This document shows positions 14,571 through 58,114 of a stretch of DNA of 64,000 nt, one piece after another (position 1 is the stretch's first letter; every line of letters begins with the position of its first letter). Position numbers and translations under genes: made by a program. The notes beneath the pieces were generated by a model, which did no database searches, was not told where the DNA came from, and saw only the letters and a program-made list of their open reading frames with translations. The stretch covers positions 372,001 through 436,000 of the forward strand of contig NZ_JAANYY010000004.1 in NCBI RefSeq assembly GCF_012274265.1. Direction: 5' to 3'. The DNA comes from Sphingopyxis microcysteis (GTDB lineage Bacteria > Pseudomonadota > Alphaproteobacteria > Sphingomonadales > Sphingomonadaceae).

Positions 14571-14674
14571 GGGGTGGGGTGTGCGAAATAGGATTTGGTG
14601 GGGTGTGGGTGCACGCGGGCGTCCGCGTTTTGGGTTCGCACGAAGCCACGAAGCCACAAAGATTCACCCCGCTT

Positions 14675-14747
14675 TCGTCACCCCGGACTAGATCCGGGGT
14701 CCATTCCAGCGCCGCCGCATGGATCCCGGATCAAGTCCGGGATGACG
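14675..14747. repeat. Palindromic repeat pair (CCGGACTnGATCCGG type)
   Basis: Two palindromes, CCCCGGACTAGATCCGGGG and CCCGGATCAAGTCCGGG, lie back to back and run into the 3' end of the GIY-YIG gene. Further copies are at 15079-15107 and 15141-15170. Confidence 0.85.
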
Positions 14748-15057
14748 ATGGAAGGGGGGGCAACCCCAATTCCTCGGCTAAGTCGCGCCATTCGGGGTTT
14801 GTCACCTCGATTAGCTCGATCTTCCACCGGCGCTGCCAATTCTTGATCTGCTTCTCACGCGCGATCGCGACGTGCATCGTCCCGGCAAGTTCGAACCAGA
14901 CGAGCGTTTTGACGCCATAAAGTTTGGTGAAGCCGTCGAAGCTGCCATCGCGGTGCTGGCAGATCCGCTGGATCAGGTGCGAGGTGACGCCGGTATAGAG
15001 CGTGCCGTGCCGCGCGCTGGCGGTGATATAGACGCAGGGTTGGAAGTCGGCATGCAT
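14731..15057 (-). CDS. GIY-YIG nuclease superfamily protein
   Basis: A 108-residue single-domain protein with the GIY-YIG pattern in CVYITASARHGTLYTGVTSH (here VYI / LYTG), then Arg and His in LIQRICQHRDGS. It also has KLVWFE-like FTKLYGVKTLVWFE and REKQIKNWQRRWK, as in the UPF0213/YhbQ-like group. Its C-terminal codons run into one palindromic repeat while others lie just upstream. This association of small GIY-YIG genes with such repeats is often seen in alphaproteobacteria. A role in DNA repair or repeat maintenance is only an inference. Confidence 0.9.
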   Translation of the reverse strand: MHADFQPCVYITASARHGTLYTGVTSHLIQRICQHRDGSFDGFTKLYGVKTLVWFELAGTMHVAIAREKQIKNWQRRWKIELIEVTNPEWRDLAEELGLPPLPSSSRT

Positions 15058-18076: not shown

Positions 18077-18625
18077 TCAACTCCAGTCGCAAATTCGGTC
18101 CAGTTTCCCTCTCCCCTTGTGGGAGAGGGAGGGGCCCAAGGCGTCAGCCTTGGGAGGGTGAGGGGTGTCGGCCTCGTTCCCCCTCATCCGGCCCTGCGGG
18201 CCACCTTCTCCCACCAGAGGAGAAGGGAGGGTGGACGCGATCGAGGTCAATACGCCCTCCAGATTCGTCATCACATCGTTATTCCAGAAGCGGATCACCC
18301 TGTAACCCTCGCCTTCGATAAAGCGTGTCCGCGCTTCATCCCGGGCGACCGCTTCGCCATGCTGTCCTCCGTCGATTTCGATCACCAGCCGCGCGGCGTG
18401 CGATGCGAAATCGGCGAAATAGGGCCCGAGAGCTTGCTGGCGGCGGAACTTTGCGAGAGGGAAGGCCTCTCGCAAGGCGCGCCACATGCGCTTCTCGGCA
18501 TCGGTGGCTTCGCGGCGGAGCGTGCGCGCTCTTTCGGTCGTCCACCGGGGGAGGTCGGCTTTGCGGCCTCGCCCCCTCACCCTCCCATCGCCGCTCACGC
18601 GGCGACGGGCCCCTCCCTCTCCCAC
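18077..18625 (-). CDS. DUF559 (VSR/restriction-endonuclease-like) protein between nrdA and nrdB
   Basis: A 182-codon frame with a DUF559 core: RARTLRREATDAEKRMWRAL, then KFRRQQALGPYFADFASHAA, RLVIEIDGGQHG, and VIRFWNNDVMTNLEGVL. The acidic residues in YFADF and VIEIDGGQH are the presumed metal ligands of the VSR-like nuclease fold. The first roughly 25 codons and the last 45 are built from palindromic repeats (SPLVGEGGPQGRMRG, SLSHKGRGK), so the true ends are uncertain. An internal start near LPRWTTERAR is possible. Its position within an essential operon is unusual. Confidence 0.75.
   Translation of the reverse strand: MGEGGARRRVSGDGRVRGRGRKADLPRWTTERARTLRREATDAEKRMWRALREAFPLAKFRRQQALGPYFADFASHAARLVIEIDGGQHGEAVARDEARTRFIEGEGYRVIRFWNNDVMTNLEGVLTSIASTLPSPLVGEGGPQGRMRGNEADTPHPPKADALGPSLSHKGRGKLDRICDWS
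18100..18245. repeat. Palindromic repeats in the 3' part of the DUF559 gene
   Basis: TCTCCCCTTGTGGGAGAGG-type palindromes occur around 18110-18135, with related TCCCACCAGAGGAGAAGGG at about 18208-18226. A further copy is at 18618-18640 between the DUF559 gene and nrdA. They encode the repeat-like ends of the DUF559 frame. Confidence 0.75.
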
Positions 18626-18644
18626 AAGGGGAGAGGGGTTTCAT

Positions 18645-30667: not shown

Positions 30668-30743
30668 CGTCATTGCGAGCGCAGCGAAGCAATCCAGAGT
30701 TGCGTAAACCGCTCTGGATTGCTTCGCTGCGCTCGCAATGACG
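30668..30743. repeat. Perfect 32-bp inverted repeat (GTCATTGCGAGCG type)
   Basis: Two perfectly complementary 32-bp arms, 30668-30699 and 30712-30743, are separated by 12 bp. This GTCATTGCGAGCGcAGCGAAG type is a widespread dispersed element in alphaproteobacteria. It lies 17 bp upstream of the acyltransferase start. Confidence 0.9.
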
Positions 30744-38421: not shown

Positions 38422-38966
38422 TCCGCGATCGCCTGTATGTCGAATTGGCCGACGGGGATTTGCGGCTCGTCAAATTGGCCGAGGCGCATCGCGAGGCGCT
38501 GCGCGCGGCTTGCGCCGCCGACGGCGACATCTGGACGATCTATTCCTCCAGCTTTGGCGGGGAGCATTTCGATCGGAGTTTTGACGCGCTGATCGGCGGC
38601 GGTGGGCGGATGCCCTATGCGATTTTCGACGGCGACACGCTGGTCGGGATGACCGCGTGGCTGCGCCCCGACTGGTCGGCCGAGACGGTGGAGATCGGCA
38701 ACAGCTATCTCCATCCCAATGCGCGCGGTACCGGCTTCAACGGGCGCCTGAAGCGGTTGATGATCGACCACGCCTTTGCCGCCGGTATCCGCCGCATCGA
38801 ATTTCGCATCGATGAGCGCAATAAGCGCAGTCAGGCCGCGGTCGCGAAGCTCGGCTGTACCAAGGAGGCGACGCTGCGGTCGGAACGGATCACCTGGACC
38901 GGCCATGTCCGCGATACCGCGCTGTGGTCGCTGCTGGCCGACGAATGGGCGAGCGGGCGCGCTTGA
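38418..38966 (+). CDS. RimJ/RimL-type GNAT acetyltransferase
   Basis: A 182-residue GNAT. MIRDRLYVELADGDLRLVKL begins at ATG 38418, which overlaps the M20 stop. The family pattern is GMTAWLRPDWSAETVEIGNS, YLHPNARGTGFNGRLKRLM and RRIEFRIDERNKRSQAAVAK with LGCTKEATLR. It is translationally coupled to the peptidase and to truB. Substrate unknown. Confidence 0.88.
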   Translation: MIRDRLYVELADGDLRLVKLAEAHREALRAACAADGDIWTIYSSSFGGEHFDRSFDALIGGGGRMPYAIFDGDTLVGMTAWLRPDWSAETVEIGNSYLHPNARGTGFNGRLKRLMIDHAFAAGIRRIEFRIDERNKRSQAAVAKLGCTKEATLRSERITWTGHVRDTALWSLLADEWASGRA

Positions 38967-39958
38967 ACGGCTGGATCATCCTCGACAAACCGCTGGGACT
39001 TGGCTCGACGCAGGCGGTCGGCGCGGTGAAGCGCGTGTGCCGCGAGGCGGGGCTCGGCAAGGTGAAGGTCGGCCATGGCGGCACGCTCGATCCGCTGGCG
39101 ACCGGGGTGCTGCCGATCGCGCTCGGCGAGGCGACGAAACTGTGCGGGCGGATGCTCGATGCCAGCAAAATCTATGAATTTGCCGTGCGGTTCGGGACCG
39201 AGACCGCAGGGCTCGATGCCGAGGGCGAAGTGGTCGCGGTAAGCGATGTGCGACCGACACTGGCGGAGGTGGAGGCGGTGCTGCCGCGCTTCACCGGGCC
39301 GATCGAGCAGGTGCCGCCGGCCTACTCGGCGATCAAGATCGACGGCGAACGGGCCTATGATCGCGCGCGCAAGGGTGAAGAAGTCGAGATGAAAGCGCGG
39401 GGGGTGACGGTGCATTCGCTTGAGCCCCTCCCCTTCAGGGGAGGGGTTGGGGTGGGGGCCATCGGCCTTGCGCAGGGCCGATGGCCCCCACCCGCTGCGA
39501 CTAAGCCGGCAAGCCGGCAAGTCTCGCTGCCCTCCCCTGAAGGGGAGGGCGTGGAGGAAATCACCCTCATCGCCCACGTTTCCAAGGGTACCTATATCCG
39601 CAGCCTTGCCCGCGACATCGCGTACGCCGTCGGCACCGTCGGCCATGTCACGATGCTCCGCCGCACGAAGGCCGGGCCGTTCGACCTGTCACAGGCGATT
39701 TCGCTGGACAAATTGAACGCGTTCGGCCAAGGGGCCGCGCAATCAGAGATATTTCTGCCGCTCGAGGCAGGGCTGGTCGACATCCCGGCTCTGAACCTTT
39801 CCCCGGAAGCGGCAGGGGCGATCCGTCGGGGTCGTGTCTGGACCGGGGTAGCTACGGATGACGGGCTCTATTGGGGACGGGACGATCAAGATCGTCCGAT
39901 CGCCCTGATCGAGGCTTTGGCGGGAACGCTGAAGGTCGTCCGGGGCTTCAATCTGTAA
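38963..39958 (+). CDS. truB: tRNA pseudouridine-55 synthase with an in-frame repeat insertion
   Basis: A 331-residue TruB from a TTG at 38963 ([20 protein letters not shown]), overlapping the preceding stop; ATG 38945 is an alternative. The catalytic Asp lies in [15 protein letters not shown] and the RNA-binding core in [14 protein letters not shown]. Between GVTVHSLE and [12 protein letters not shown] about 43 residues are encoded by a palindromic element (39424-39551): [20 protein letters not shown] and onward. Without this stretch the protein has the usual length near 290 residues. The insert sits in a loop before the conserved SKGTYIR strand, and the rest of the frame is intact. rpsO follows. 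Confidence 0.95.
39424..39551. repeat. Palindromic element inserted inside truB
   Basis: A 128-bp element starts and ends with inverted CCCCTCCCCTTCAGGGGAGG-type palindromes and has an inner inverted repeat CATCGGCCTTGCG / CGCAGGGCCGATGG. It is translated as part of TruB. Related copies are at 55377-55562, 56512-56638 and 57947-58106. Confidence 0.9.
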
Positions 39959-51094: not shown

Positions 51095-51182
51095 CCGTTC
51101 GTGCTGAGCTTGTCGAAGCACCGTTCTTCTTCTTGCGACGCTAAAAGAAAGAACGGCCCTTCGACAAGCTCAGGGCAAACGG
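51095..51182. repeat. Second copy of the CTTCGACAAGCTCAGG inverted element
   Basis: CCGTTCGTGCTGAGCTTGTC and the inverted GACAAGCTCAGGGCAAACGG match 48680-48765 closely. The two copies are about 2.4 kb apart. Confidence 0.9.
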
Positions 51183-52353: not shown

Positions 52354-52374
52354 GCTTGTCTGTCCCCCTTAAAT

Positions 52375-52451
52375 CGTCATCCCGGCGAAGGCCGGGATCT
52401 CACCCTCTCGTTCTCCCTCGCCGGCGAGATCCCGGCCTTCGCCGGGATGAC
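52375..52451. repeat. CGTCATCCCGGCGAAGG inverted repeat pair
   Basis: The same element as 36375-36452: arms CGTCATCCCGGCGAAGGCCG and its inverse, with about 24 bp between. Confidence 0.9.
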
Positions 52452-52474: not shown

Positions 52475-53737
52475 TTAGAAGACCGTTCTTGCCGCCACCG
52501 TCCCCTTGGTCGCAAAGCTGAAGCGCGGTTCGACCGCCAGCTTCGCGTCAAGGATATGCGCCGCGATCCGCTTGCCCACCGCCGGGCCGTTCTTGAACCC
52601 GTGCCCCGATCCGCCGCCGACGAGCCAGACGCGCTCCTGCCCCGGAAAGCGGTCGATCAGATAATCGCCGTTCGAGCTATTCTCATATTGGCAGACGCGC
52701 CCGCCGATCAGCGGTGCCGACGCGAGGGCGGGGAAGCGGCGGGCGATATAGGCGCGCGCCTCGGCGATCCCCGCCGGGGTCAGGCTGCGCTCCATCGTGT
52801 CGGGGTCGATCGCCGGGCCGTGGCGGTCGATCGCGATCTTGAACCCGGCCCCCTCAAGGTCGGGGATGCCATAGAAAATGCCGTTGTTGCTGTTGTCGGC
52901 CCACACCGGCAGTTCGGGCGGCGCAAAGCGCGTGTCGCCCTGCGGCGCACCGAAATGATAGACCTCCTGCCGCGTCGCGACGATCTTGTTCATCAGCTGC
53001 TGCGGGAAGAGTTCGGCGAGCCACGGCCCCGCGGCATAGACGAGATGGTCGGCGGTGCCGCCGTCGGGCAGGCTGTGGCGCTTGATCCGTTTCGACAGCA
53101 GGGGCGCGGGCATCACGACGCGCTCGACGGCGATCTCAGCATCGGCGATGACTTCCTGGACCCCGCGGCCCGCGATCAGCGCGCCGCATTCGGTTTCGAG
53201 GATGCCGGTCTCGCCCTGATAGAATTGGATCTGGCGATATTTGTCCTGCAGCCAACGGACGTCGCCATGCTCGTGGCCGACGCGATTGGCCTGAAGCCAC
53301 GCCAGCGACTGCGCGGTATAGGCGTCGCCCTGCGGCGCGAACCACAGCACGCCGGTGTTGTGAAAGATCGGCGCACTGGCGCTGTCCGACAGTGCTTTCC
53401 AATAGGGCAGCGATTCGCGCGCCATTTCGGAATAGATGGTATCGGCGCCATAGCCCATGCGGATGACGCGGCTTTCGCCGCCCGAGGACGAGCGGACATG
53501 CCCCGCGCCATAGGCGTCGAACAGGCGCACGCTCTTGCCCGCCCGCAGCAGATGCCACGCGGTCCATGCGCCGAACACCCCGGCGCCGATGATCGCGACA
53601 TCGACGTGCTGGACCTTGGGCTTGGCGGGTTTGCGCTTCTTCGAGCGCCGTTCGGCCGCCGCCGCACTCGCCGCAACCGGCAGCGCAGCGAGTCCGGTCA
53701 GCAGCGCCCGCCGGCTGGGGACGCTATCGCCCGCCAC
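52475..53737 (-). CDS. Exported FAD-dependent amine/amino-acid oxidase (sarcosine-oxidase-like)
   Basis: A 420-residue DAO-fold enzyme from GTG 53737 (MAGDSVPSRRALLTGLAALP). The N-terminus looks like a Tat signal (SRRALLTG), then IIGAGVFGAWTAWHLLRAGK (FAD loop) and SSGGESRVIRMGYGADTIYS, the sarcosine-oxidase signature. The C-terminal active-site end is VWLVGGGSGHGFKNGPAVGK. It probably oxidises a secondary amine or amino acid in the periplasm. Its start overlaps the preceding amidohydrolase stop by 14 bp, so the two are coupled. Confidence 0.88.
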   Translation of the reverse strand: MAGDSVPSRRALLTGLAALPVAASAAAAERRSKKRKPAKPKVQHVDVAIIGAGVFGAWTAWHLLRAGKSVRLFDAYGAGHVRSSSGGESRVIRMGYGADTIYSEMARESLPYWKALSDSASAPIFHNTGVLWFAPQGDAYTAQSLAWLQANRVGHEHGDVRWLQDKYRQIQFYQGETGILETECGALIAGRGVQEVIADAEIAVERVVMPAPLLSKRIKRHSLPDGGTADHLVYAAGPWLAELFPQQLMNKIVATRQEVYHFGAPQGDTRFAPPELPVWADNSNNGIFYGIPDLEGAGFKIAIDRHGPAIDPDTMERSLTPAGIAEARAYIARRFPALASAPLIGGRVCQYENSSNGDYLIDRFPGQERVWLVGGGSGHGFKNGPAVGKRIAAHILDAKLAVEPRFSFATKGTVAARTVF

Positions 53738-55409
53738 CCGGCGCGTCCTTCTTGTAATAGCGGTAGCCGCCGATCCACGTTTCGAGCGGCACCATCTTGC
53801 GAATTTCGTCGGGGCTGGCGAGCATCGGGTCGGCGTCGATCATCAGGAAGTCGGCGCGCATCCCCGGCATCAGCGTGCCGATGCGGTCCTCGGCGAAGGC
53901 GGCGTAGGCCGCGGTGCGGGTAAAGCCGTCGAGCGCCGCTTCGCGGTTCACCGCTTCCTCGGGCCGCCAGCCGCCAAAGGGCTGGCCGTTCGCGTCGGTG
54001 CGCGAGATGGCGGCAGCAAGGCCGGCAAAGGGATCGGCGCTTTCGACCGGGACGTCGGAACCAAAGGCGAGGCGGGCGCCCGCCGCTTGCAGGCTGCGCC
54101 ACGCATAGGCGCCCTTCAGCCGATCGGGGCCGAGCCGTGCCTCGGCCATCAGCCGGTCGCTGGTCTGGTGGACCGGCTGCATCGAGGCGATCACCTTCAG
54201 GCTGGCAAAGCGCGCGATGTCGGCGGGGTCGATCACCTGCGCATGTTCGATGCGCCAGCGGCGTTCGCCCGGCAAGTCGGCGTTAAGGTCGGCGATCGCG
54301 TTCAAGGCCTCGGCATTGGCGGCGTCGCCGATCGCGTGGATCGTCACCTGGAACTTGTCCATCGACGCGCGCACCATCTTGTTGCGGAGCTGCGCCGGGG
54401 TGAGCAGCGGCAGGCCGGCCTGGCCCGGCGCGTCGCTGTATGGCGCCTTCAGCCATGCGCCGCGCGACCCGAGCGCGCCGTCGAGGTAGAGCTTGACCCC
54501 GACCATGCGCAGCCGGTCGTCGTACAGCCACGGCGTCGGTTCACCGCCCGCGATCATCGCCATATTGTCGATGTCGCCGCCGTAGCTGAGGATGCGGACC
54601 GCGAGCTGTTTCTTGTCGCCGGCGCGGCGGAACGCCTGCCAGTCGAGGATCGACGTCCCCATGTCGGCGATCGCGGTAATTCCCTGTTCGAGCAGTTTCT
54701 GCTGCGCGAGCAGCAAGGCGCGGTCGAGGTCGCGGGCGAGGGGTTTGGGCTTGGCGCTATCGATCAGGCTCATCGCGGCGTCGACAAAGACGCCGCTCGG
54801 CTTGCCGTCCGCCATCTCGATGCGGCCGCCGTCGGGTGACTTGCTGGCGGCGGTCACCTTGGCCGCGGTCATCGCGGCGGTGTTCGCCCAGCCCGCATGG
54901 CCGTCGACGCGTTCGAGCCAGACCGGGCGGTTCGGCACCGCGGCGTCAAGGTCGGCGGCGGTCGGGAACCGGCCCAGACCCCATTTTTCCTGATTCCATC
55001 CCGACCCGATGATCCACGGCATTTCGGGATTGTCGGCGGCATATTTCCGGATCGCCGCCTGGGCTTCGGCCAGCGAGTTGGTGCCCGAGAGGTCGAGCAG
55101 CATCAGCTGGAAACCCAGCCCCATGACATGACCGTGCGCGTCGATCAGCCCGGGGATCAGGGTGCGGCCCTTGCCATCCTCCTTGAAATCGGGGCGTTCG
55201 GGGCGCTTGTCCTTGCGGTCGAGCAGCTCTTTGACCTTGCCCTCCTTGTCGATGACCAGCCCGGTAAAGCGCACCAGCTTGCCGTCCTTGTCGAGCGTGA
55301 TGCCGTTGACATTGTCGACGAGCGTGTCGGCGTGCGCGGGGGCGGCGATGGAGAGGGCGAGCGCGGCCGCAATCAAGCCCCTCCCCTTCAGGAGCGTCGG
55401 GTCGGCCAT
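53724..55409 (-). CDS. Amidohydrolase 3 family protein (YtcJ-like), exported
   Basis: A 561-residue metal-dependent amidohydrolase. The signal peptide is IAAALALSIAAPAHA. The metal ligands are in IPGLIDAHGHVMGLGFQLML (HxH), VGVKLYLDGALGSRGAW, TIHAIGDAANAEALNAI and RWRIEHAQVIDP, and the final Asp is in LAFGSDVPVESADPFAGLAA. ATG 55409 lies inside a palindromic repeat and gives ADPTLLKGRG ahead of the signal; the alternative start is TTG 55376 just after the GGGGAGGGG of the repeat. Substrate unknown; the coupled FAD oxidase suggests joint catabolism of an amide-bearing compound. Confidence 0.88.
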   Translation of the reverse strand: MADPTLLKGRGLIAAALALSIAAPAHADTLVDNVNGITLDKDGKLVRFTGLVIDKEGKVKELLDRKDKRPERPDFKEDGKGRTLIPGLIDAHGHVMGLGFQLMLLDLSGTNSLAEAQAAIRKYAADNPEMPWIIGSGWNQEKWGLGRFPTAADLDAAVPNRPVWLERVDGHAGWANTAAMTAAKVTAASKSPDGGRIEMADGKPSGVFVDAAMSLIDSAKPKPLARDLDRALLLAQQKLLEQGITAIADMGTSILDWQAFRRAGDKKQLAVRILSYGGDIDNMAMIAGGEPTPWLYDDRLRMVGVKLYLDGALGSRGAWLKAPYSDAPGQAGLPLLTPAQLRNKMVRASMDKFQVTIHAIGDAANAEALNAIADLNADLPGERRWRIEHAQVIDPADIARFASLKVIASMQPVHQTSDRLMAEARLGPDRLKGAYAWRSLQAAGARLAFGSDVPVESADPFAGLAAAISRTDANGQPFGGWRPEEAVNREAALDGFTRTAAYAAFAEDRIGTLMPGMRADFLMIDADPMLASPDEIRKMVPLETWIGGYRYYKKDAPGGGR

Positions 55410-55562
55410 GCCCCCGGCATGGCCTGAATAGTCCGGGGGACTGTTCACCCGACGCTGGGTTGGGGTGGGGGCCCGCGGCGTGGCGTGAGGCCACTGGCCC
55501 TCACCCGCTGCGACTAGGCAGCAAGCTGCCAAGTCTCGCTGCCCTCCCCTGAAGGGGAGGGC
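55377..55562. repeat. Palindromic element, copy with a nested insertion
   Basis: It has the same ends as the truB element (CCCCTCCCCTTCAGG and CCTGAAGGGGAGGG) but is longer, because a second inverted repeat is inserted near the left end (55393-55456). It supplies the start region of the amidohydrolase. Confidence 0.85.
55393..55456. repeat. Second palindrome nested inside the repeat element
   Basis: Arms AGCGTCGGGT (55393-55402) and ACCCGACGCT (55447-55456) flank inner hairpins GGCCATGCC / GGCATGGCC and GTCCGGGGGAC. It occurs only in this copy. Confidence 0.75.
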
Positions 55563-55579
55563 GAATTTTTGAAGTCGGT

Positions 55580-56458
55580 TCATTTCGGCAACCTTGTTAC
55601 GAGTGAGCTGGTGTCGCGGCGGCCATGTCCGGCCTTTTGCACATCGGCGTAGAATTGATCGACGATCGCGGCGACGGGGATCGTCGCGCCGTTCGAGCGC
55701 GCTTCGTCGAGCGCGAGGCCGAGGTCCTTGCGCATCCAGTCGACCGCAAAGCCAAAGTCGAACTCGTCCTTGGCCATCGTGTCCCAGCGGTTGAGCATCT
55801 GCCAGCTCGCCGCCGCGCCGCCCGACACCGCCTCGAACACCTTGTCGGTGTCGAGCTTCGACGCCTGCGCAAAGCGCAGCGCTTCGGACAGGCCTTGCAG
55901 CACCCCGGCGATCGCGATCTGGTTGACCATCTTGGTCGTCTGCCCCGCGCCGGGGCCGCCGATATGAACCATGCGCGCGGCATAGGCCTGCATCACCGGC
56001 TCGGCGGCCGCGAACGCCGCCCTGGTCCCGCCGCACATGATCGACAGCGTGCCGTTCTGCGCCCCCGCTTCGCCGCCCGACACCGGCGCATCGACGCACA
56101 GCAGGCCAAGCCCGTCGGCCTCGACCGACAGCTGGCGGGCGATCCGCGCCGATACCGTGGTATGGTCGATAAACAAGGCGCCTTTGCGCATCGCGCGGAA
56201 CGCCCCGTCGCGCCCCAGCGTCACCTGCGCCAGATCATCGTCGTTGCCGACGCAGGTCAGCACGACATCGGCGTCCTGCGCCGCCTCCGCCGGGGTCGCC
56301 GCCGCCTTGCCGCCATGCGCCGCGACCCAGGCGTCGGCCTTGGCGCGCGTGCGGTTATAGACGGTGAGGTCATGGCCCGCTTTCGCAAGATGCCCCGCCA
56401 TCGGACCGCCCATGACGCCGGTGCCGATGAAGCTGATGCGCAATTTTTGTTCGCTCAT
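55580..56458 (-). CDS. NAD(P)-binding 3-hydroxyisobutyrate dehydrogenase-like protein
   Basis: A 292-residue member of the beta-hydroxyacid dehydrogenase family. The Rossmann loop is ISFIGTGVMGGPMAGHLAKA, the substrate loop VDAPVSGGEAGAQNGTLSIM, and the catalytic Lys lies in GPGAGQTTKMVNQIAIAGVL. The C-terminal domain ends GHGRRDTSSLVTRLPK. It could act on 3-hydroxyisobutyrate, tartronate semialdehyde or glyoxylate. It lies between two copies of the palindromic element and is divergent from ilvA. Confidence 0.92.
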   Translation of the reverse strand: MSEQKLRISFIGTGVMGGPMAGHLAKAGHDLTVYNRTRAKADAWVAAHGGKAAATPAEAAQDADVVLTCVGNDDDLAQVTLGRDGAFRAMRKGALFIDHTTVSARIARQLSVEADGLGLLCVDAPVSGGEAGAQNGTLSIMCGGTRAAFAAAEPVMQAYAARMVHIGGPGAGQTTKMVNQIAIAGVLQGLSEALRFAQASKLDTDKVFEAVSGGAAASWQMLNRWDTMAKDEFDFGFAVDWMRKDLGLALDEARSNGATIPVAAIVDQFYADVQKAGHGRRDTSSLVTRLPK

Positions 56459-56511: not shown

Positions 56512-56638
56512 GCCCCTCCCCTTCAGGGGAGGGGTTGGGGTGGGGGCCATCGGCCTTGCGCAAGGCCGATGGCCCCCACCCGCTGCAACTAGGCAGCAAG
56601 CTGCCAAGTTTCGCTGCCCTCCCCTGAAGGGGAGGGCG
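56512..56638. repeat. Palindromic element between the dehydrogenase and ilvA
   Basis: A 127-bp copy closely similar to the truB element: CCCCTCCCCTTCAGGGGAGG ends and an inner CATCGGCCTTGCG / CGCAAGGCCGATG repeat. Confidence 0.9.
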
Positions 56639-57946: not shown

Positions 57947-58106
57947 GCCCCTCCCCTTCAGGGGAGGGGCAACGAAGACTTGGCAGCTTGCTGCCTAGTC
58001 GTAGTGGGGTGGGGGCCAGCGGCCTTGCGCAAGGCCGCGGGCCCCACCCGCTGCGACTAACGAACAAGTTCGTAAGTCTCGTTGCCCTCCCCTGAAGGGG
58101 AGGGCG
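57947..58106. repeat. Palindromic element between ilvA and the thioesterase gene
   Basis: A 160-bp variant: the same CCCCTCCCCTTCAGGGGAGG end and CCCTCCCCTGAAGGGGAGG end, with an extra TTGGCAGCTTGCTGCC hairpin near the left end. Its right end overlaps the ribosome binding region of the next gene. Confidence 0.9.
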
Positions 58107-58114
58107 TAGAGGAT

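Follow-up and report, generated by a model that had tools for sequence, protein, structure and literature searches.

Unrelated palindromic repeat families repeatedly fill, replace and vacate one TruB loop in Sphingopyxis and its relatives

The window, a 64,000-nucleotide stretch of the Sphingopyxis microcysteis genome, carries a truB gene in which a palindromic element, here called class A, lies in frame (Table 1). The gene probably starts at the TTG at 38963, the point at which the truB of a relative (L095) begins ATGAACGGCTGG. A preliminary description had placed a 128-bp palindrome inside the coding sequence, and this is borne out by the sequence, the open frame and the Pfam domains on either side, TruB_N upstream and TruB_C_2 downstream, the insert occupying the loop just before SKGTYIR. 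The folded RNA of the element consists of two inner hairpins enclosed by one outer stem and has a free energy of -114.6 kcal/mol, whereas its shuffled versions average -72.63 (z -10.49, none of 200 shuffles being as good). The outer arms pair as terminal inverted repeats in the manner of a MITE, and inspection by eye of the flanks of 30 class A copies found no clear target-site duplication, with AA often preceding GCCCC. The ends of class A are GCCCCTCCCC and GGGAGGGCG, with neither CGTC nor GTAG present there, and a search of the whole window with Rfam at gathering scores matched no known RNA family. The earlier figure of about 43 added residues holds as the length of the element but not as a net gain, which amounts to some 34 residues when compared with the short TruB common in the genus (331 vs 297 aa) and some 37 relative to E. 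coli TruB (44 vs 7 residues between aligned blocks). In the AF2 model of TruB (mean pLDDT 87.9), for which the best Foldseek match was E. coli TruB 1k8w, residues 160-186 fall below a pLDDT of 50 and lie between the beta strands 146-155 and 199-206, in keeping with an insert that is predicted to be disordered.

Table 1. Coordinates of truB, its insert and the dispersed repeats in the window
Feature	Positions	Strand	Evidence or remark
truB (tRNA pseudouridine-55 synthase), 331 aa	38963..39958	+	open frame, Pfam TruB_N and TruB_C_2, Foldseek
class A palindromic element, in frame within truB	39424..39551	+	sequence, repeat search, RNA fold
class A element, left outer arm	39424..39446	+	sequence; paired to right arm in fold
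class A element, inner hairpin 1	39450..39493	+	inverted-repeat search and fold
class A element, inner hairpin 2 (ends approximate)	39495..39529	+	fold
class A element, right outer arm	39530..39551	+	sequence and fold
dispersed class A copy	55457..55563	+	at start of - strand amidohydrolase-like ORF (named by eye)
dispersed class A copy	56512..56638	+	upstream of - strand gene (start MSEQKLRISF by eye)
dispersed class A copy or copies	about 57947..58113	-	two overlapping matches, opposite strands
class B repeat (CGTC-tagged REP dimer)	14672..14750	+	repeat and family searches
class C repeat (CGTCATCCCGGCGAAGGCCGGGATCTC), same family as truB inserts of L059-L061	36374..36453	+	repeat searches
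class C repeat, second window copy	52374..52451	+	repeat searches
class D repeat (GAGCTTGTCGAAGG), same family as truB inserts of L065, L074	48680..48765	+	repeat searches
class D repeat, second window copy	51095..51182	+	repeat searches

The recurrence of the element between genes at 55-58 kb, noted previously, was confirmed (Table 1), and across the genome class A occupies about 40 places (84 matches with both strands counted, 40 of 82 candidates being scored). Among 30 copies inspected the full-length ones have common ends, and some are cut or fused. In the amidohydrolase-like ORF (53724-56099, - strand) MNRLQKF and GLIAAALALSIAAPAHA are separated by the class A copy, which leaves the frame open; a signal peptide may be interrupted by this copy, or the real start of the ORF may lie further downstream. 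Classes A, B, C, D and E/F are all many-copy in this genome, 40 of 75-135 candidates having been scored for each family. The window also holds two inverted repeats of other types, one at 30668-30743 with 32-nt arms that are 100% complementary around a 12-nt spacer and one at 18107-18637 with 31-nt arms separated by 469 nt.

When 145 loci of the five families in this genome were sampled, some of them one place read on both strands, truB alone passed a test for coding on both sides of the repeat within a gene; the sample is incomplete since it missed the insert in the genome's own DNA ligase (L412, see below). Most long frames running over the repeats looked spurious by codon-position G+C, and the sampled loci gave no sign of many in-frame host genes in this genome. 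One further candidate (L300) passed the composition test and was rejected as its Pfam domain lies entirely downstream of the element, and a full E/F copy (L276) sits between two genes read by eye as frr and uppS rather than within a gene.

A search for truB in 80 Sphingopyxis genomes gave a match in 79, the exception being G068; among the matches listed G067 gave insert-like peptides only, and G048, with a weak match (E 1e-12), was left out of the reading. The gene was read in 77 genomes, being whole in 72 and incomplete or broken in the other five (L095, L102, L105, L106 and L107/L108). Repeats of known families occupy the loop in 52 of the 77, a figure made up of 50 whole genes, every one with an open frame, plus the incomplete L106 (class B, E 4e-20) and L107 (class C, 8e-17), with L105 (weak match only) and L102 (a frame-broken single class B unit) not counted. 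Among the 72 whole genes class B is found in 28 (RHAGLDPAS..TPDQVRGDE), class E/F in 11 (ILPTCGE or ILPGTGRG..PLHHPADGPPPRAGEE), class A in six (PLPFRGG..PSPEGEG), class C in three (RHPGEGRDL) and class D in two (VRPELVEGP..PSTSSG), the remaining 22 having no recognised repeat. All 50 whole-gene inserts (L031-L080) match repeats that lie outside truB in the genome of the window (E up to 0.01). Repeats with CCTCCCC arms are among the unrelated types at the loop before SKGTYIR in other species of the genus. A further class set by eye for L105 (weak support, one 28-nt match, E 0.002) and L160 (no match) was not adopted. Alignment of the homologues revealed no conserved shared segment, the relatives carrying either different repeats or a short loop. 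Class A inserts are also present at the identical position in L032 and L035 and in decayed form in L034, which answers the concern that the insert might be an assembly error of one genome.

Deletion scars of former repeats were recognised in L086, L087, L096 and L097, with L087 and L096 also matching repeats, and frame-broken remnants in L095 (G064) and L102 (from G036, a fragmented assembly of 550 contigs). The breaks in L095 and L102 lie at the insert site and resemble class B repeats that have been partly deleted; in L095 the frame appears to have been broken by loss of a class B insert, with GGGGTGACG in truB and a similar sequence at the end of the repeat as the endpoints.

A truB tree of 110 rows was built with the insert excluded. 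To the 72 whole genes of the genus it adds 38 genes taken from named records, one of which (L151) is identical to L099; of the other named-record loci L156, a copy of L036, was dropped and L165 was not parsed. On this tree the family label undergoes no fewer than 43 changes, gains, losses and swaps being counted together, with a recognised repeat absent from 42 of the rows. The total is 43 instead of 44 because L160 was counted as having no repeat; labelling it separately gives 44 changes (bootstrap 43-45). Restricted to the 68 insert-bearing rows there are 25 changes, or 15 when families are pooled by arm type, and 19 (bootstrap 18-19) when the rows are limited to the 50 of the genus that bear inserts. 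One TruB loop in Sphingopyxis and its relatives is repeatedly filled, swapped and emptied by unrelated palindromic repeat families. The earlier reading of this DNA had missed that the truB site is common to unrelated repeat families across the family.

At the truB loop, class H, class A and class E/F as well as other repeats are found in records of Sphingorhabdus, Novosphingobium and other relatives. In a sample from other genera of the family, made up of 66 genes from 247 matched genomes (26 best matches plus 40 picked, mostly one per genus), 27 of the 64 parsed loops are strongly palindromic (z under -3), while L367, L370 and L371 are short and two, L357 and L365, were left unparsed. Further insert types read by eye include SSPARGGG and RHPREGGDPE..LDSRLRGND. 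Class H, the family for which dispersal within its own genomes was checked outside Sphingopyxis, gave 86, 51, 48, 18 and 6 matches in five genomes with both strands counted, the top three counts coming from the genomes behind L152, L154 and L170. In some members of the family the same place in TruB is occupied by a long native loop without a palindromic fold (STFATTAGRPDPYDP), read as STFATTAGRPDPYDPxAPLELAD in L317, L318, L327, L328 and others; in L340, L344, L347 and L353 repeats seem to lie just before it. In other alphaproteobacterial families all 33 readable truB loops were short, out of 40 genes picked from 101 matched genomes, the remaining seven being frames of 293-314 aa.

A second host was found when 20 frames over class A matches were screened. 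An ATP-dependent DNA ligase (PF01068, PF04679), matched in 74 of the 80 genomes, carries an in-frame repeat after ETAALLWPE, and of 30 loci sampled from these 74, with a list biased by the insert-bearing query, 28 have an insert at this loop and two do not. Dispersed repeats of the S. microcysteis genome match 24 of the 28 inserts at E below 1e-7, with L416 (0.005) and L419 (4e-4) giving weak matches and L413 and L414 none. Among the ligase inserts are class A copies, not all read in one frame, and a second type (L410, L412, L418). The ligase of the S. microcysteis genome itself (L412, outside the window) has the second type, and its relatives carry different repeats at that loop. The same pattern at a loop of unrelated sequence rules out truB as a unique case. 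An AF2 model of the ligase had a mean pLDDT of 39.0 and was set aside.

The probable explanation is recurrent insertion and partial deletion of repeats at a permissive TruB loop, filtered by the need to keep the reading frame. The tip of one TruB beta hairpin would provide the permissive loop, and small palindromic repeats lacking genes of their own would insert frequently in these genomes, most intragenic copies being purged while an in-frame, stop-free insert at the TruB loop would be nearly neutral and would be retained, translated as a disordered stretch. Partial deletion would then take out inserts and leave scars, and the emptied site could be refilled later by another active family. A rough estimate is that 6-20% of class A-D copies inserted at random would preserve the frame and contain no stop. 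Open frames and conserved flanks suggest that the insert is translated, and we infer both near neutrality and the order insertion, deletion, reinsertion. Permissivity rather than targeting appears to be the reason for the site; a permissive loop by itself leaves the choice of this loop unexplained. The 42 of 110 rows without a recognised repeat and the strong fold retained by 59 of 68 inserts also speak against this explanation. A bolder proposal, advanced tentatively and with low confidence, would have certain loops of housekeeping proteins, those of TruB and the ligase, serve as standing landing pads for all repeat families of a bacterial family, each able to enter, to be excised and to be replaced; the protein would hold an exchangeable translated cassette, possibly kept for an mRNA hairpin that is useful regardless of sequence.

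The choice of loop would be explained if truB were a true insertion target, with machinery common to several families recognising its sequence or structure. Read by eye, inserts of different families start within about 7 nt of one common Leu codon, this codon is CTT in 26 of the 28 class B rows against 15 of the 44 remaining rows of the genus, a T precedes CGTC in all 14 dispersed class B copies read in one genome (G022), and few in-frame copies turned up in other genes of the S. microcysteis genome. Against such targeting, the site is used by families with unrelated ends, the ligase loop shows the same pattern in unrelated sequence, inspection by eye gave no common target and a search of the S. 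microcysteis genome for the Y1 transposase PF01797 found no match, such that a shared targeting mechanism is considered unlikely.

The turnover could also reflect few real insertions, with most label changes arising by homologous exchange of truB alleles between species. Resolution is poor at the centre of the truB tree, in which only 48 of 106 inner branches are well supported, and the middles of class B inserts agree weakly with the flank phylogeny (Mantel r 0.28, a value reached by 20 of 2000 permutations), both of which count in favour of allele exchange. Each family still needed at least one entry at the site, in several genera, and sister genes with unrelated inserts remain alike right up to the insert. 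The window's gene (L031) and L033 are sisters (100/99) with 300-nt flanks that are 94.7% and 96.3% identical, as are L055 and L078 (96.3% and 96.7%), and in the nearest 60 nt on either side identity is 96.7% and 93.3% for the first pair and 91.7% and 95.0% for the second. In other pairs the identity next to the insert falls to 78-90%, which could be due to exchange of short tracts, and allele exchange between species could be the source of part of the label changes; as the main cause it is improbable. Within truB the class B middles have a mean likeness of 0.65 (19 rows), higher than the 0.55 among 21 genomic copies and the 0.48 between the two sets, and since they also weakly track the flank tree, part of the class B inserts share descent, which disfavours every class B insert being a fresh insertion.

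A further alternative is that the mRNA hairpin or a long flexible TruB loop is useful, with repeats being swapped and one always kept. A strong fold (z under -3) is present in 59 of 68 inserts, and class B arms are conserved at synonymous sites, with a pS of 0.067 against 0.332 in the flanks, one fifth, as calculated from the 19 of 28 class B rows with a fixed layout. The arms must therefore have been homogenised, re-inserted or constrained as nucleic acid, and plain neutrality does not predict their low pS unless copies are homogenised or re-inserted. In the L077 truB insert (L077/L474, G022) the two REP loops bear corresponding changes (CTTG to CTGG, CAAG to CCAG) that are absent from the 14 other class B copies read in that genome. 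Set against this usefulness are the 22 of 72 whole genus genes with no recognised repeat and the weak or absent hairpins in L034, L058, L073, L171 and L179, the frame of L034 still being open despite its decayed hairpin (z -1.1). The insert is weakly constrained as protein, class B pN/pS rising from 0.16 in the flanks to 0.43 in the arms and 0.53 in the middle, and the same pattern recurs in a DNA ligase, making a useful hairpin or loop a very unlikely reason for the turnover. Finally, although some members of the family have a native long loop here, the insert is almost certainly neither an assembly error nor a conserved segment of ordinary TruB, as the inserts match dispersed repeats and differ between sister genes and the 33 loops read outside the family are all short.

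In-frame palindromic repeats have so far been reported mostly one gene at a time. A single site whose repeat family has changed at least 19 times within the genus amounts to a natural experiment in which the mobility of repeats, the amount of foreign sequence that a protein loop tolerates and any gain of function by translated remnants can be measured. Peptides such as PLHHPADGPPPRAGEE in sphingomonad proteins are suggested to be repeat-derived, and a tolerant spot in a housekeeping protein serves as a record of long traffic in selfish DNA.

The preliminary description knew of no sphingomonad equivalent, a statement that does not survive the literature, as the available text of PMC3733652 names REPs, not of class A, in truB of S. 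alaskensis and E. litoralis. These are of CGTC or GTAG types, and the same text gives a truB REP in S. maltophilia, RPE-1 in R. conorii truB, a REP in a DNA ligase of O. terrae and, for two Xanthomonas, recB with different REPs at roughly one position, other genes of the recB category having REPs at different sites; flexible loops were suggested there as neutral hosts of inserts (Di Nocera et al., 2013). REPs in truB were thus already published, and what appears to be new here is the replacement of one unrelated family by another at one truB loop, of which no description was found in the open-licence literature and which is absent from the available text of PMC3733652. CGTC REPs are defined in that text by the tag, an 8-9 bp stem, a 4-5 nt loop, mostly a CCA tail and mostly head-to-head dimers. 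Class B, read by eye as CGTC, a ATGCCGGA stem, a CTTGA loop and CCA, agrees with them in tag, stem, short loop, tail and head-to-head dimer. Class C fits by eye in tag, stem and loop and has a CTC tail instead of CCA, whereas the class A element of the window has neither the CGTC nor the GTAG tag at its ends.

Among ERIC, Correia and Wolbachia WPE repeats we know of no reuse of one loop by several families. These are likewise small repeats fused in frame to genes, with sequences and hosts that differ from those described here, according to the part of PMC2229807 available. The Rickettsia palindromic elements (RPEs) are palindromes of 105-146 bp that lie between genes and in frame in conserved proteins, as does class A, and a guanylate kinase carrying an RPE is translated and active, while turnover between families at one codon is not reported in the available text (PMC2229807). 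The RPE-like behaviour proposed earlier for the element is upheld, a dispersed palindromic repeat lying in frame in a conserved gene, and the likeness described is one of mode of action, many copies outside genes and in frame within them.
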